From the NCBI GenBank assembly GCA_018969485.1, contig JAGWYG010000008.1, positions 1-64,000 on the forward strand: a stretch of 64,000 nucleotides of DNA, given 5' to 3'. Shown here piece by piece: positions 54,338 to 63,590 of this stretch (position 1 is the first letter of the stretch; each line of letters starts with the position of its first letter). Both the position numbers and the translations under genes were made by a program. The notes beneath the pieces are model-generated. The model ran no database searches. It was not told the origin of the DNA and saw nothing but the letters and a program-made list of their open reading frames with translations. The DNA comes from Chloroflexota bacterium. GTDB taxonomy: Bacteria; Chloroflexota; Chloroflexia; Chloroflexales; Roseiflexaceae.

Positions 54338-54392
54338 TCGCCTGCGACAAGCGCACGTCCAGGCGCTGCGGGATGCCCACCAGGGCTCGGGC

Positions 54393-54620
54393 TCACACGA
54401 AGACACGAAGCCACGAAGGGGCGGGAGACGGGAGACGGGCTCACACGAAGCCACGAAGCCACGAAGGGGCGAGGGACGGGAGGCGGGGCGGGGGACGGGG
54501 AGGCGGCGGGTGTCACACGAAGACACGAAGACACGAAGGGGCGGGGGACGGGGGACGGCGGGTGTCACACGAAGACACGAAGACACGAAGACACGAAGGG
54601 GCGGGGGACGGGAGGCAAGG
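54393..54620. repeat. Four tandem clusters of an 8-bp (ACACGAAG-type) repeat
   Basis: Runs of ACACGAAG / CCACGAAG occur after TCACACGAAG anchors at about 54393, 54441, 54513 and 54565, each followed by a G-rich spacer (GGGGCGGGGGACGGG-like). Each cluster has about 3-4 copies. Translated, they give the HTKTRRHED-type strings often mis-annotated as proteins in diverse bacteria, so no protein is called. They fill much of the gap between the desaturase and the ilv promoter. Confidence 0.8.
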
Positions 54621-54659: not shown

Positions 54660-54688
54660 TTGACAGCCCATCCATTTCCGGCTACAAT
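54660..54688 (+). promoter_or_regulatory. Promoter of the branched-chain amino acid operon
   Basis: TTGACA (54660-54665), 17-base spacer, TACAAT (54683-54688): near-consensus sigma70-type. Start near 54695, about 24 bases before the leader-peptide ATG and about 420 bases before ilvB. Confidence 0.8.
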
Positions 54689-54718
54689 ACCGGTGCGTCA
54701 ATTGACTGCAGGTGTGAC

Positions 54719-54802
54719 ATGCGACAGCGCCGAACGATCATCAGCAGCATCCTCCTCCTTCTTGTAGTCCTCCTTGAGGGCTCATTGGTGTTTGGGGGGT
54801 AG
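54719..54802 (+). CDS. Leader peptide of the ilv-leu operon (attenuation)
   Basis: 27 residues: ATG 54719 with AGGTGTG upstream, stop TAG 54800-54802. Codons 7-19 (54737-54775) are Ile, Ile, Ser, Ser, Ile, four Leu, two Val, two Leu; 11 of these 13 are branched-chain amino acids, and further Leu and Val follow. They include CTT and GTA codons that are uncommon in neighbouring genes. The peptide has no independent role; the ribosome's progress on these codons reports charging of Ile/Leu/Val tRNAs. Located between the operon promoter and a terminator hairpin. Confidence 0.85.
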   Translation: MRQRRTIISSILLLLVVLLEGSLVFGG

Positions 54803-54840
54803 CTGACGAGTGAGACGACGCGCGACCGACAGCCCCTCCC
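54794..54840 (+). promoter_or_regulatory. Antiterminator pairing overlapping the leader stop codon
   Basis: GGGGGG (54794-54799, the two Gly codons before the stop) and GCTG (54802-54805, spanning the last base of the stop) can pair with CCTCCC and CAGC (54830-54840), about 10 bp with an internal mismatch. This pairing is mutually exclusive with the terminator stem. A ribosome stalled at the Leu/Val codons leaves it free to form; a ribosome reaching the stop would mask it. Confidence 0.6.
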
Positions 54841-54867
54841 GGTTCCGGGGGGGGCTGATTGTTTCTC
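54830..54867 (+). terminator. Attenuator (intrinsic terminator) of the ilv-leu operon
   Basis: CAGCCCCTCCCGG (54830-54842) and CCGGGGGGGGCTG (54845-54857) form a 13-bp stem with one G-U pair, followed by the T-rich ATTGTTTCTC (54858-54867). It lies 27 bases after the leader stop, so it can end transcription before ilvB. Confidence 0.8.
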
Positions 54868-54903: not shown

Positions 54904-55008
54904 ATGCTCGAGCGTCTGAAAGACTGGTTCGGCCGATTGCTCTCGCCACAGCGTCTCGCTCCGGCGCCGGTGCCCATCCCGGTCGATCGACGATCGCGGC
55001 GGCGCTGA
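54904..55008 (+). CDS. Predicted 34-residue small protein upstream of ilvB
   Basis: ATG 54904 with a strong AGAAGGAGA site about 8 bases upstream; stop TGA 55006-55008. The sequence begins MLERLKDWFGRLL, an amphipathic helix, then a Pro-rich segment and ends in Arg-rich RRSRRR. It lies after the attenuator and 106 bases before ilvB, so it would be translated only when the operon is expressed. No family known to me; a membrane-surface helix or a second leader are the options. Confidence 0.55.
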   Translation: MLERLKDWFGRLLSPQRLAPAPVPIPVDRRSRRR

Positions 55009-55114: not shown

Positions 55115-56836
55115 ATGTCTGAGAAGCGAACCGGGGCCCAGATCATGTGTGAGGTGTTGATCCGCAACGGTGTCGACGTCATGTTCGGCATTCCGGGTGG
55201 CGCGATCATGCCGTTCTATTACGCGATGTGGGAATACCGCGACCAACTGCGGCACGTGCTGTGCCGCCACGAGCAGGGCGGCGGGCACGCCGCCGAAGGC
55301 TACGCGCGGGCGACCGGCAAGATCGGCGTGTGCATCGGCACCAGCGGCCCCGGCGCCACCAACCTCGTCACCGCCATCGCCGACGCGATGATGGACAGCA
55401 CGCCGCTGCTGGCGATCACCGGGCAGGTGGGCAGCCACGTGCTCGGCAAGGACGCCTTCCAGGAGACCGACATCACCGGTATCACGATGCCGATCACCAA
55501 GCACAACTACCTGGTGAAGCGCGTCGAGGACATCGCCTACACCATGTCCGAGGCGATCCACGTCGCCACCACCGGCCGGCCCGGGCCGGTGCTCATCGAC
55601 ATCACCAAGGACGCGATGGTCGCGGCGACGGTGCCGACGTGGGAGTTTGCCTTCGATCTGCCCGGCTACAAGCCGACCTACCAAGGGAATCGGCGGCAGG
55701 TGCGCGAGGCCATCCGGCTGCTGACCCAGGCGCGCAAGCCGCTGGTGATGGCGGGCAACGGCGTGATCATGGCCGGCGCCTCCGACGACCTGCGCGAGTT
55801 TGCCGAGCGGACGCGCATCCCGGTGATCACCACGCTGCACGGGATCGGCTCGTTCCCCGAGGATCACCCGCTCAGCATCGGCATGCCCGGCATGCACGGC
55901 TGGGTGCACGTCAACCGCGCCATCCAGGAATGCGACGTGCTGCTGAACATCGGCGGGCGCTTCGACGACCGCGTCACCGGCAAGGCCAGCACCTTCGCGC
56001 CCAACGCCCGCATCATTCACGTCGACATCGATCCATCGGAGATCGGCAAGAATGTCCGCGTCGCGGTGCCGATCGTCGGCGATGCCCGGCTGGTGCTGCG
56101 CGACCTGCTGGCCGAACTGCCGGACCGCGACGCGCTGGGCAGCCTGCACAGCGCCGCGAGCGACTGGATGGAGCACATCCGCGAGATGCAGGACCGCCAC
56201 CAGCAGAAGCAGCAGTACCTGGTGCGGCCCGACGGCATGCTGCTGCCGCCCCACGACGTCTATCGCGGCCTGACCGCAGCGCTCAACAGCCGGGGCAACT
56301 ACCGCGTCTGCACCGACGTCGGCCAGCACCAGATGTGGGCCGCCCAGTTGATCGACTGGCATCGCCCGCGCACCCACATCACCTCGGGCGGCGCCGGCAC
56401 GATGGGCTTCGCCGTGCCGGCCGCGCTCGGCGTGGCCATCGCGCATCCCGGCGACACCGTCTGGGCCGTGTGTGGCGACGGCGGCTTCCAGATGACCAAC
56501 CAGGAGATGGCGACGGTGGTGCAGGAAGGCATCAGGAACATCAAGATCGCCATCATCAACAATGGGTACCTCGGCATGGTGCGCCAGTGGCAGGAGCTGT
56601 TCGAGAACAAGCGCTACAGCGGCACGCCGCTCTCCGGGCCCAACTTCGCGATGCTGGCCGCAGCCTACGGCTGGAAGGGCCTGACCATCGAGCGCAGCGA
56701 GGATGTCGCCGCAGCGATCGACGAGGCCTACGACACCGACGGCCCGGTGCTGATCGACTTCCGCGTCGAGCGCGAGGTGAATGTCTTCCCGATGGTGCCG
56801 CAGAACAAGAGCATCGGCGAGATGATCTACGAGTGA
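55115..56836 (+). CDS. ilvB: Acetolactate synthase, large (catalytic) subunit
   Basis: 573 residues, normal length. ThDP site: catalytic Glu in CRHEQGGGHAAEGYARATG (near 54), and the GDG...NN motif VCGDGGFQMTNQEMATVV to AIINN. FAD-binding middle domain and VRQWQELFENKRYSGT near the C terminus. Condenses two pyruvates, or pyruvate and 2-oxobutyrate, in valine/isoleucine synthesis. ATG 55115 has AAGGAG 8 bases upstream; GTG 55106 is a weaker alternative. Confidence 0.97.
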   Translation: MSEKRTGAQIMCEVLIRNGVDVMFGIPGGAIMPFYYAMWEYRDQLRHVLCRHEQGGGHAAEGYARATGKIGVCIGTSGPGATNLVTAIADAMMDSTPLLAITGQVGSHVLGKDAFQETDITGITMPITKHNYLVKRVEDIAYTMSEAIHVATTGRPGPVLIDITKDAMVAATVPTWEFAFDLPGYKPTYQGNRRQVREAIRLLTQARKPLVMAGNGVIMAGASDDLREFAERTRIPVITTLHGIGSFPEDHPLSIGMPGMHGWVHVNRAIQECDVLLNIGGRFDDRVTGKASTFAPNARIIHVDIDPSEIGKNVRVAVPIVGDARLVLRDLLAELPDRDALGSLHSAASDWMEHIREMQDRHQQKQQYLVRPDGMLLPPHDVYRGLTAALNSRGNYRVCTDVGQHQMWAAQLIDWHRPRTHITSGGAGTMGFAVPAALGVAIAHPGDTVWAVCGDGGFQMTNQEMATVVQEGIRNIKIAIINNGYLGMVRQWQELFENKRYSGTPLSGPNFAMLAAAYGWKGLTIERSEDVAAAIDEAYDTDGPVLIDFRVEREVNVFPMVPQNKSIGEMIYE

Positions 56837-56882: not shown

Positions 56883-57425
56883 GTGAAGAAACATACCATC
56901 GTCGCCCTGGTGCAGGATCGCCCGGGCGTGCTGAGCCGGGTGGTCGGCCTCATCCGCCGGCGCGGCTACAACATCGAGAGCCTGGCCGTCGGCCACAGCG
57001 AGGCTGCCGGCATCAGCCGGCTCACCATCGTGATCGAGTGGCACGATGTCGAGCAGGTCGTCAAGCAACTCTATCGCCTGATCGACGTGGTGAAGGTCAG
57101 CGACGTCACCGAGGACCAGACGGTCGAGCGCGAGATGGCGCTGCTCAAGATCCACGCCCCGGCGGCGAAGCGCCCCGAGATTGTGGCGCTCACCGATGTC
57201 TTCGATGCCAAGATCGTCGACGTCGGCACCAGCACCATGGTGATCGAGATGACCGGTTCGCCGTCGAAGGTGCAGAACCTGATCGATGTGGTGCGACCCT
57301 ATGGCATCAAGGAGATGATGCGTACCGGGCGCATCGCCATGGTGCGCGGCGCGCGCGGCCACGGCGCCGACGACGTGCTCGAGGGGGCGGGCCAGGCCGC
57401 CGTGCCCAGCGCTGCGCTGAACTGA
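56883..57425 (+). CDS. ilvN: Acetolactate synthase, small (regulatory) subunit
   Basis: 180 residues. N-terminal ACT domain ([34 protein letters not shown]) binds valine for feedback inhibition; the C-terminal domain (about 80-160, [15 protein letters not shown]) activates IlvB. GTG 56883 has GGGGGAG upstream, 46 bases after ilvB. Confidence 0.96.
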
Positions 57426-57501: not shown

Positions 57502-58524
<1,023 letters not shown>

Positions 58525-58605: not shown

Positions 58606-60275
<1,670 letters not shown>

Positions 60276-60279
<4 letters not shown>

Positions 60280-61169
60280 GCGGCATCGCCTATCTCGGGC
60301 CGCCCGGCTCGTACAGCGAGATCGCCGCGCTCGTCTGGGGCGACGCGGCGACGCCGCTGCTGCCGCTCGCGACGATGCCGGCGGTCGTCACCGCCGTCGA
60401 GACGGGAGCCGCGCGCCACGGCGTGCTGCCGATCGAGAACGTGCTCGAGGGTGGCGTCACCACGACGCTCGACCTGCTGATCCACGAGACGGCGCTGCGC
60501 ATCTCGGGCGAGACGGTGGTGCCCGTGCGGCACGTGCTGGTGGCGCGCGCCGGCATGCAGTTGCCCCAGGTGCGGGTGCTCTACGGCCATCCCCAGTCGC
60601 TCGGCCAGTGCCGCCGGTTCATCGAGCGCGTGCTGCCCGGCGTGGCGACCGTCGCCTCGCTCAGCAACAGCACGGCGCCGGTCGAGGCGCTGGCCGATGA
60701 GCGCGGCGCGGCGGCGATCAGCACCGAGCGCGCCGCCGTCCTCGCCGGTGCGACGGTCATCGCCCGCGACATCCAGGATCGCGCCGAGAATGTCACGCGC
60801 TTCATCCGGCTGTCCCACACCGACCACCCGCCCACCGGCGACGACAAGACCAGCCTGTGCTTCGGCTTCAGCGAGCGCGACCGGCCGGGCATCCTGGTCG
60901 ATGCCCTGCTGGAGTTCTCCAGCGTCGGCCTCAACATCACCCGGCTCGAATCGCGGCCATCGAAGGACGTGCTGGGGGGCTACATCTTCCTGGTCGATCT
61001 GAATGGCCACCGCACGGATGCACCGGTTGCGGCGGCGCTCGAACGCGTGCGCTGCCGCGTCGGCCTGCTCAAGATCTTCGGGAGCTATCCATGCTGGCAC
61101 GCGAGCGCCAACGCGGCGCCCGCTGCCACGACCCGCGCCGGCGGCACGGCTGCCGCCGATACGCCGTGA
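60276..61169 (+). CDS. pheA: Prephenate dehydratase
   Basis: 297 residues. Catalytic domain (1-180): [29 protein letters not shown], and the [12 protein letters not shown] / AAISTERAA segment with the TRF-type motif [10 protein letters not shown]-terminal ACT domain (about 195-275, [35 protein letters not shown]) for phenylalanine control. No chorismate mutase domain. Embedded between leuA and ilvE, overlapping leuA by 4 bases, so it follows branched-chain regulation although it serves phenylalanine synthesis. Confidence 0.94.
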
Positions 61170-61206: not shown

Positions 61207-62130
61207 ATGCCGTCGATCAACGCGTCGAAGGTGATCTGGTTCAACGGGCAACTCGTGCCATGGGAGCAGGCGACGGTGCATGTCATGACGCACGCGCTGC
61301 ACTATGGCTCGTCGGTCTTCGAGGGAATTCGCGCCTACGCCACGCCGCGCGGCCCGGCATTGTTCCGCATCCAGCCACACATCCGGCGTCTGTTCGACTC
61401 GGCGCGCATCTACCGGATGGAGCTGCCATTCACGGCCGAGCAGCTGACCGAGGCGTGCGGCATGGTGGTGCGCGAGAATGGCCTCAGCGACGCCTACCTG
61501 CGGCCACTCGTGTGGCGCGGCTACGGCGTGCTCGGCGTCATGCCGATCGACGCCCCGGTCGAGGTGATGGTCGCCGCCGTCACGTGGGGTGCCTACCTCG
61601 GCGCCGAGGGTCTCGAACGCGGCGTCGATGTCCAGGTCTCGTCGTGGAACCGGGTGGCGTCGAATACCCTGCCGGCGATGTCCAAGGCCGGCGGCAACTA
61701 CCTGTCGTCGCAGCTGATCGTGATGGAAGCCGTGCGCAACGGCTATGTCGAGGGCATCGCTCTCGATGTCAATGGCCAGCTCAGCGAGGGTTCCGGCGAG
61801 AATCTGTTCATCATCCGCGATGGCGTGATCTACACGCCGCCGGCCACCGCCGCGCTGCTGCCCGGCATCACCCGCGATGCGGTGATGACCATCGCACGAC
61901 ACCTGGGGTACGAGGTGCGCGAGCAGGCGCTGCCGCGCGAGGTGCTGTATCTCGCCGACGAGATCTTCTTCACCGGCACCGCCGCCGAAGTCACACCGGT
62001 GCGCTCGGTCGACCGGCTGACCATCGGCTCCGGGACGCGCGGGCCGATCACCACGCACATCCAGCGCACGTTCTTCGGCCTGTTCGATGGCTCGACCGAG
62101 GATCGCTGGAGCTGGTTGACCCACGTCTGA
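61207..62130 (+). CDS. ilvE: Branched-chain amino acid aminotransferase
   Basis: 307 residues, class IV PLP fold. The Schiff-base lysine is Lys160 (LPAMSKAGGNYL). HALHYGSSVFEGIRAY near 29-44, SGENLFIIRDGVIYTPP and the late FFTGTAAEVTPVRSVD are IlvE landmarks. Final step for Ile, Leu and Val. GAGGAGG lies 8-14 bases upstream. Confidence 0.97.
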   Translation: MPSINASKVIWFNGQLVPWEQATVHVMTHALHYGSSVFEGIRAYATPRGPALFRIQPHIRRLFDSARIYRMELPFTAEQLTEACGMVVRENGLSDAYLRPLVWRGYGVLGVMPIDAPVEVMVAAVTWGAYLGAEGLERGVDVQVSSWNRVASNTLPAMSKAGGNYLSSQLIVMEAVRNGYVEGIALDVNGQLSEGSGENLFIIRDGVIYTPPATAALLPGITRDAVMTIARHLGYEVREQALPREVLYLADEIFFTGTAAEVTPVRSVDRLTIGSGTRGPITTHIQRTFFGLFDGSTEDRWSWLTHV

Positions 62131-62168: not shown

Positions 62169-63590
62169 GTGACCGGAGCCAGGACCCTGTTCGAGAAGAT
62201 CTGGCAGCAGCACCTGGTGCGCCCCGCGACGGCGGCGACGCCGGCGGTGCTGTATATCGACCTGCATCTGATCCACGAGGTGACGTCGCCGCAGGCGTTC
62301 GCCGAGCTGCGCGCGCGTGGCCTGCGGGTGCGCCGCCCCGACCGGACGCTGGCGACGATGGATCATTCGACGCCGACGACGCCGCGCGACCAGTTCGGGA
62401 TCATTCCGGTGCTCGATGCCCAGGCGGCGGCGCAGCTCGACCGCCTGCGCGAGCATTGCCGCGAGTTTGGCATCCAGCTGTTCGAGCTCGGCAGCGAGCA
62501 TCAGGGCATCGTGCATGTGATCGGGCCGGAGCAGGGCCTCACGCAGCCCGGCATGACGATCGTGTGCGGCGATAGCCACACCAGCACGCACGGCGCGTTC
62601 GGCGCGCTGGCATTCGGCATCGGCACCTCCGAGGTCGGACATGTGCTGGCGACCCAGTGCCTGCTGCAGCAGCGCCCGCGCACCATGGAGGTGCGCGTCG
62701 ATGGCCGGTTGCCGCATGGCGTCACCGCCAAGGACATCATCCTCGCGATCATCGCGCGCTATGGCGTCGGCGGTGGGACCGGCCACGTGTTCGAGTACAC
62801 GGGCCCGGCGATTCGCGCGCTCTCGATGGAAGAGCGCATGACGATCTGCAACATGTCCATCGAGGGTGGCGCGCGCGCCGGGCTGGTGGCGCCCGACGAC
62901 ACGACCTTCGACTACGTTGCCGGCCGCCGCTTTGCACCGCGGGGTGCCGCCTGGGAGGCGGCGCTGGCGCGCTGGCGTGCGCTGCCGACGGATCCCGGCG
63001 CGACGTATGACCGTGTGATCACGCTGGACGCGTCGCAGCTCGCGCCGATGATCACCTATGGCACGAATCCGGGCATGGGCATGCCGATCGATGCGCGCGT
63101 GCCCACGCCCGACGCGCTGCCCGAGCCGGGCCAGCGGGCGGCGCTCGAGAAGGCATTGCGCTACATGGGCCTGCAGCCCGGCCAGGCGCTGCTCGGCCAG
63201 CCCCTCGACGTCGCATTCCTCGGGAGCTGCACCAACTCGCGCCTCAGCGACCTGCGTGCCGCGGCGCGCATTCTCGACGGCCGCACCGTCGCCGCCAACG
63301 TGCGCATGCTGGTCGTGCCCGGCTCGCAGGCGGTCAAGCGTCAGGCCGAAGCCGAGGGCCTCGACCGGATCTTCCGCGCGGCCGGCGCCGAGTGGCGCGA
63401 GGCCGGCTGCTCGGCCTGCCTCGGCATGAATGACGACAAGGTGCCGGCGGGCAGCTACGCGATCAGCTCCTCGAATCGCAACTTCGAGGGCCGCCAGGGT
63501 CCCGGCGCGCGAACCTTCCTCGCCAGCCCGATCACGGTGGCAGCCTCGGCGGTCGCCGGTGTGGTGACCGATCCGCGGCCGTATGTGTGA
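62169..63590 (+). CDS. leuC: 3-isopropylmalate dehydratase, large subunit
   Basis: 473 residues. [4Fe-4S] cysteines in [13 protein letters not shown] and [34 protein letters not shown] and [11 protein letters not shown] are aconitase-family signatures. GTG 62169 has AAGGAG 7 bases upstream. Acts with LeuD to convert 2- to 3-isopropylmalate. Confidence 0.97.

Follow-up and report, generated by a model that had tools for sequence, protein, structure and literature searches.

The window, by which we mean the whole 64-kb stretch of DNA that was analyzed, carries on its forward strand an operon of branched-chain amino acid genes. The first gene of this putatively regulated operon is ilvB, which encodes the large subunit of acetolactate synthase (positions 55115 to 56836; TIGR00118). 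It is followed by ilvN for the small subunit (56883 to 57425), ilvC for ketol-acid reductoisomerase (57502 to 58524), leuA for 2-isopropylmalate synthase (58606 to 60279), a pheA-type prephenate dehydratase gene that overlaps the end of leuA (60276 to 61169), ilvE for branched-chain aminotransferase (61207 to 62130), and leuC for the large subunit of 3-isopropylmalate dehydratase (62169 to 63590). The prephenate dehydratase gene is a phenylalanine-pathway gene sitting within the ilv-leu operon. An earlier note on this DNA had described a complete ribosome-mediated attenuator at 54660 to 54867, and direct reading found all of the claimed elements at their coordinates ahead of ilvB-ilvN-ilvC-leuA-pheA-ilvE-leuC.

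The promoter is of the sigma-70 type, with TTGACA at 54660 to 54665 and TACAAT at 54683 to 54688. The two hexamers are separated by a 17-nt spacer and match the consensus at 11 of 12 positions, confirming the near-consensus promoter that had been claimed. Promoter-like sites were seen 4 times in 19 kb, compared with the 1.2 expected. Transcription is expected to start near 54695 to 54697, approximately 20 to 25 nt 5' of the leader open reading frame (ORF). Directly 5' of the promoter lie tandem repeats (54388 to 54598) with units of 48, 52, and 8 bases, which are of the CACGAAG and GGGGACGGG types.

The leader ORF (54719 to 54802) is preceded by a probable Shine-Dalgarno sequence, AGGTG (54710 to 54714), and consists of 27 codons and a TAG stop codon. 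Its product is MRQRRTIISSILLLLVVLLEGSLVFGG, in which 11 Ile, Leu, and Val residues fall within codons 7 to 19 (the sensing run, 54737 to 54775), exactly as had been proposed. Both strands of the 64-kb window were screened for ORFs of 12 to 45 amino acids that contain a stretch with at least 7 of 10 residues Ile, Leu, or Val and have a terminator no more than 60 nt away. The leader was the sole ORF to pass. Six Markov-1 windows, searched on one strand each, contained no such Ile/Leu/Val-rich ORF, even at 8 of 10.

Four RNA regions can be assigned around the leader. Region 1 (54744 to 54755) lies inside the Ile and Leu codons and is the partner of region 2 when the ribosome is absent. Region 2 (54794 to 54808; GGGGGG UA GCUG ...) is the 5' strand of the antiterminator and runs across the leader stop codon, and region 3 (54827 to 54840) is the 3' strand and shares sequence with the 5' terminator arm. 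The intrinsic terminator (54830 to 54867) comprises a stem at 54830 to 54857 with the loop GTTC and the tail ATTGTTTCTC. The note had given this stem 13 bp and a T-rich tail; the terminator and the richness in T were borne out, and the stem is read here as 12 bp with a 4-nt loop, since 13 bp leaves a loop of 2 nt. The tail is interrupted, and many relatives have 5 or 6 T residues consecutively. The competing pairing was also found to overlap the leader stop codon, as stated: 54794 to 54805 pairs with 54830 to 54840 through 10 pairs and two more, with UAG inside and its U and A bulged. The note's list lacked the pairing of region 1 with region 2, which joins 54744 to 54755 with 54794 to 54807.

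These features are those of a classical attenuator: an ORF of end-product codons at the head of the operon, an intrinsic terminator before the first gene, a mutually exclusive antiterminator, and a 1:2 protector pairing. We infer that the leader is translated, that ribosomes stall within it, and that termination responds to starvation, as follows. When charged tRNA is ample, the ribosome would pass the Ile, Leu, and Val codons, reach the stop codon, and mask region 2. Region 3 would then pair with region 4, and polymerase would halt at 54858 to 54867. When charged tRNA is scarce, the ribosome would stall on codons 7 to 19 and mask region 1, so that region 2 could pair with region 3 while region 4 is still unsynthesized. 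Termination would then fail, and ilvB and the genes downstream would be transcribed. With no ribosome on the leader, regions 1 and 2 would pair and the terminator would form, giving a basal off state.

The head of the operon was compared across the order Chloroflexales. Sixty relatives were examined for ilvB; they span Roseiflexus-like, Chloroflexus-like, and Herpetosiphon genomes, which places the window in this order, and 55 of them were tabulated; the remaining genomes (G010, G013, G024, G041, and G048) were left out because they are truncated or lack a full-length ilvB match as an anchor. With five further genomes (G101, G102, G103, G104, and G106), 60 operon heads were readable. This comparison upstream of ilvB had been set as the refuting test of the attenuator, and the leader, terminator, and promoter were present at all 60 of these heads. 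The Ile/Leu/Val-rich leader stands before ilvB in 39 genomes, and in 16 genomes with the order ilvD-ilvB it is placed before ilvD instead. An automatic scan had flagged G104 as an exception, which was rejected when direct reading located a leader and terminator before ilvD. We also considered a shared leader at ilvD genes that are separate from the operon. This found no support: none of the 34 such genes examined (22 + 12) has a comparable conserved leader; they have a few chance Ile/Leu/Val-rich ORFs, behind which terminators were tested in the set of 12.

Among the 55 tabulated relatives, every promoter matches at least 9 of 12 consensus positions, and the terminator lies 22 to 49 nt 3' of the leader stop codon in 54, the terminator of G019 being below the threshold. 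A strong hairpin with a T-rich tail is likewise found in 54 of 55, many with 4 to 6 T residues consecutively, and the first gene starts 28 to 477 nt after the terminator, so that hiding of the ribosome site is no common feature. Both observations argue against attenuation through Rho or translation coupling rather than through the intrinsic terminator, a mechanism that the interrupted T tail of the window and the long terminator-to-gene gap of several genomes might suggest and that we regard as very unlikely.

The codons of the leader differ from those of the genes around it. CTT and GTA had been described as rare nearby, and the counts agree: CTT makes up 0.9% of Leu codons in neighboring genes, and GTA makes up 4% of Val codons in ilvB over 30 genomes. 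In the window, CTT is used for 3 of the 7 leader Leu codons (p = 1.5e-4 against the neighboring genes), and CTG is used for 0 of 7, compared with 68% in neighboring genes. A strong skew is also seen over these 30 genomes: GTA encodes 70% of the leader Val residues versus 4% in the ilvB genes of the same genomes (p ~2e-6), and CTG encodes 8% of the Leu residues versus 49% (p ~2e-6). Part of the preference for CTC and CTT may be structural, as region 1 needs to be rich in C and T to pair with region 2. This structural demand does not explain the preference for GTA.

The antiterminator covaries among the relatives. Its helix occurs in 31 distinct sequences, reaches up to 15 bp, and pairs better with the terminator arm of its own genome than with the arms of other genomes (permutation p = 0.0002, which is indicative, as the rows of this swap test are interrelated). 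The 2:3 pairing of the window itself was no better than that of shuffles of its G-rich region 2 (z = -0.3). This score was set aside as uninformative because region 2 is rich in G and region 3 in C, and support for the 2:3 pairing comes from the relatives and the swap test. The 1:2 pairing is seen in the window, and its pairing energies were computed for the relatives.

Folding the region with and without a ribosome, a check proposed in the earlier note, gave a divided answer. In nascent RNA of the window that lacks region 4, the expected number of 2:3 pairs is 12.5 to 13.5 when the sensing run is occupied by a ribosome, compared with 2.1 when the ribosome is at the stop codon and 0.3 when there is none; the 2:3 pairing is thus predicted to form upon stalling. 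The complete RNA did not switch: at equilibrium, the terminator is favored at every ribosome position. Equilibrium folding was consequently dropped as proof of a switch, and the nascent-RNA comparison alone is informative. Since the terminator is favored at equilibrium, antitermination would have to be kinetic, as it is in classical cases.

With its hydrophobic sequence and basic N terminus, the leader peptide resembles a small membrane protein. It could accordingly be a membrane peptide with a role of its own, the hairpin being its terminator and the promoter of ilvB lying downstream. This is hard to reconcile with a leader whose position at the operon head shifts with operon structure, whose codons include chosen rare ones, and whose antiterminator pairing is kept. 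In addition, Ile, Leu, and Val make up 95% of the hydrophobic residues of the leader core, and Phe, Met, and Trp are almost absent; what seems to be conserved is the identity of the residues and not simply their hydrophobic character. In G005, G006, and G008, the gap between the terminator and ilvB is 28 to 51 nt, too short for another promoter. We consider such a peptide highly improbable. The anatomy, conservation, codon skew, and pairing support the reading offered in the earlier note, and, judging from these sequence features, we estimate a probability of about 0.92 that a ribosome-mediated transcription attenuator controls the ilv-leu operon according to the availability of charged tRNAs for Leu, Val, and Ile.

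Between the terminator and ilvB, the window contains a second small ORF, which the note had overlooked. It spans 54904 to 55008 with the Shine-Dalgarno sequence AAGGAG and encodes 34 amino acids (MLERLKDWFGRLLSPQRLAPAPVPIPVDRRSRRR). Related ORFs, with the rough pattern M..L...I......P[VI].I..RR.RR., occur in four families, that of the window and three others. They start 26 to 46 nt past the terminator in most of the Chloroflexus-like and Herpetosiphon-like genomes that have them and farther away in one genome of family f2. An alignment search of the genomes returned 16 matches (E < 1e-4), all at ilv operon heads. Synonymous differences per site exceed nonsynonymous ones in most close pairs, weakly, and the ORF is missing from genomes with a short gap between the terminator and the gene. 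As guesses, its translation might cover a long untranslated stretch with ribosomes against Rho, or its product might be a regulatory microprotein. Operon heads of the Chloroflexaceae (e.g., L017, L009, and L019; TCACCGCCG...GCGGCG) have a conserved three-helix RNA between the attenuator and ilvB. It has two-sided changes at 5 of 17 pairs, has no Rfam match, and is not evident in the window.

Attenuation as a general habit of the order was rejected. The trpE and hisG heads of the order, 30 loci each, lack consistent Trp- or His-rich leaders, which indicates that, among the three pathways examined there, the device is tied to the ilv operon. No Rfam family (T-box RF00230, the Leu, Thr, Trp, and His leaders, and all others) matched the 64-kb window at the gathering threshold, and the heads sampled from the order likewise lacked a match to any Rfam family, the T-box covariance model included. 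T-boxes do precede ilvB or ilvD in other Chloroflexota, and a T-box or a protein-binding regulator could in principle control the operon with the leader as a relic; the lack of Rfam matches and the maintenance of the leader, codon skew, and pairing across four families, unlike a relic, make this scarcely credible.

Outside the order, the attenuator is found beside T-boxes. Of 60 Chloroflexota loci, two belong to the order; the other 58 ilv heads include 16 with a leader and terminator at the strict score, compared with 0 when these loci were scored on the opposite strand, and direct reading adds L190 and L193. About a third of the sample has a similar device, and T-boxes are found at other heads. 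The earlier note had called the system notable in a Chloroflexota-like genome, which holds in part: such a device, of a classical kind, proves to be the rule in the Chloroflexales and is widespread among other members of the phylum.

Family f6, which we take to be Thermobaculum-like, has both kinds of sensor. In 4 of 4 genomes with a readable ilvB, a T-box with its own terminator comes first, and behind it lies an ORF rich in Ile, Leu, and Val codons with another terminator. The T-box has a specifier-like CUC (Leu), read from GAA-CUC-RCC, and region 2 pairs with region 3 over 8 to 10 bp without mismatch in 3 of the 4 genomes. The T-box and leader lie in series approximately 570 to 100 nt before ilvB at L190, L193, and L196 (the same loci as L331, L332, and L333) and at L334. 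In the Bacillus subtilis rtpA operon, the nearest precedent we know of, a Trp leader peptide acting at the level of translation comes after a T-box. It is conceivable, at somewhat less than even odds, that the ilv operon of the Chloroflexota carries a series of sensors on one terminator logic (leaders in the Chloroflexales, T-boxes elsewhere, and both in f6), with the second ORF as a regulatory upstream ORF or microprotein.

Candidates were also seen in other phyla. In Gemmatimonadota metagenome-assembled genomes (L067, L069, and L070), a leader, for example MIRNSQLLLSLILSLLLIGVGLIGFGKRTGLAAM, is accompanied by a very long terminator approximately 2 kb before an ilvB that is about 70% identical to that of the window. 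In Thermus igniterrae (L126), a candidate leader, MRSVLALSLALVLIVGPAGGRV, and then a terminator-like hairpin occupy the stretch from 137 to 25 nt before ilvB.

Most known amino acid operons under ribosome-mediated attenuation are those of Proteobacteria and Actinobacteria. In Escherichia coli, ilvGMEDA (ilvL) and leuABCD (leuL) have attenuators with leader peptides rich in Ile, Val, and Leu. The window shares with these the pathway, the intrinsic terminator, and regions 1 to 4 with 1:2, 2:3, and 3:4 pairings. It differs in having no Rfam leader match, in using CTC, CTT, and GTA codons rather than the CUA run of leuL, and in belonging to another phylum. The Leu T-box (RF00230) of ilv-leu operons likewise serves the same pathway and reads tRNA charging by a terminator/antiterminator switch, whereas sensing in the window is proposed to be done by a translating ribosome. 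Candidate ilvB leader peptides with terminators have been reported in Corynebacterium, Mycobacterium, and Streptomyces (PMC1262725), and a three-hairpin model has been proposed for the ilvB leader of Corynebacterium glutamicum (PMC11857589). In the window, too, a short ORF with Ile, Val, and Leu codons stands together with a terminator immediately in front of ilvB; its phylum and sequences are different, and its operon adds leuA, pheA, ilvE, and leuC. In Streptomyces coelicolor, altering the regulatory codons before ilvB left regulation unchanged (PMC1262725), and anatomy alone is therefore no proof of mechanism.

A 2013 survey of four Rfam attenuator families proposed a gammaproteobacterial origin with few transfers (PMC3766115). 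We found no earlier description of attenuation in Chloroflexota in the literature, and the survey of Lopatovskaya, Seliverstov, and Lyubetsky (2010) may hold a prediction. The mechanism proposed here is that of textbooks. The attenuator is found in all readable genomes of one Chloroflexota order and is scattered in the phylum beside T-boxes, with candidates in Gemmatimonadota as well. With this distribution, the swap of one sensor of tRNA charging for another becomes traceable, and family f6, with its two sensors one behind the other, offers a direct case for testing.
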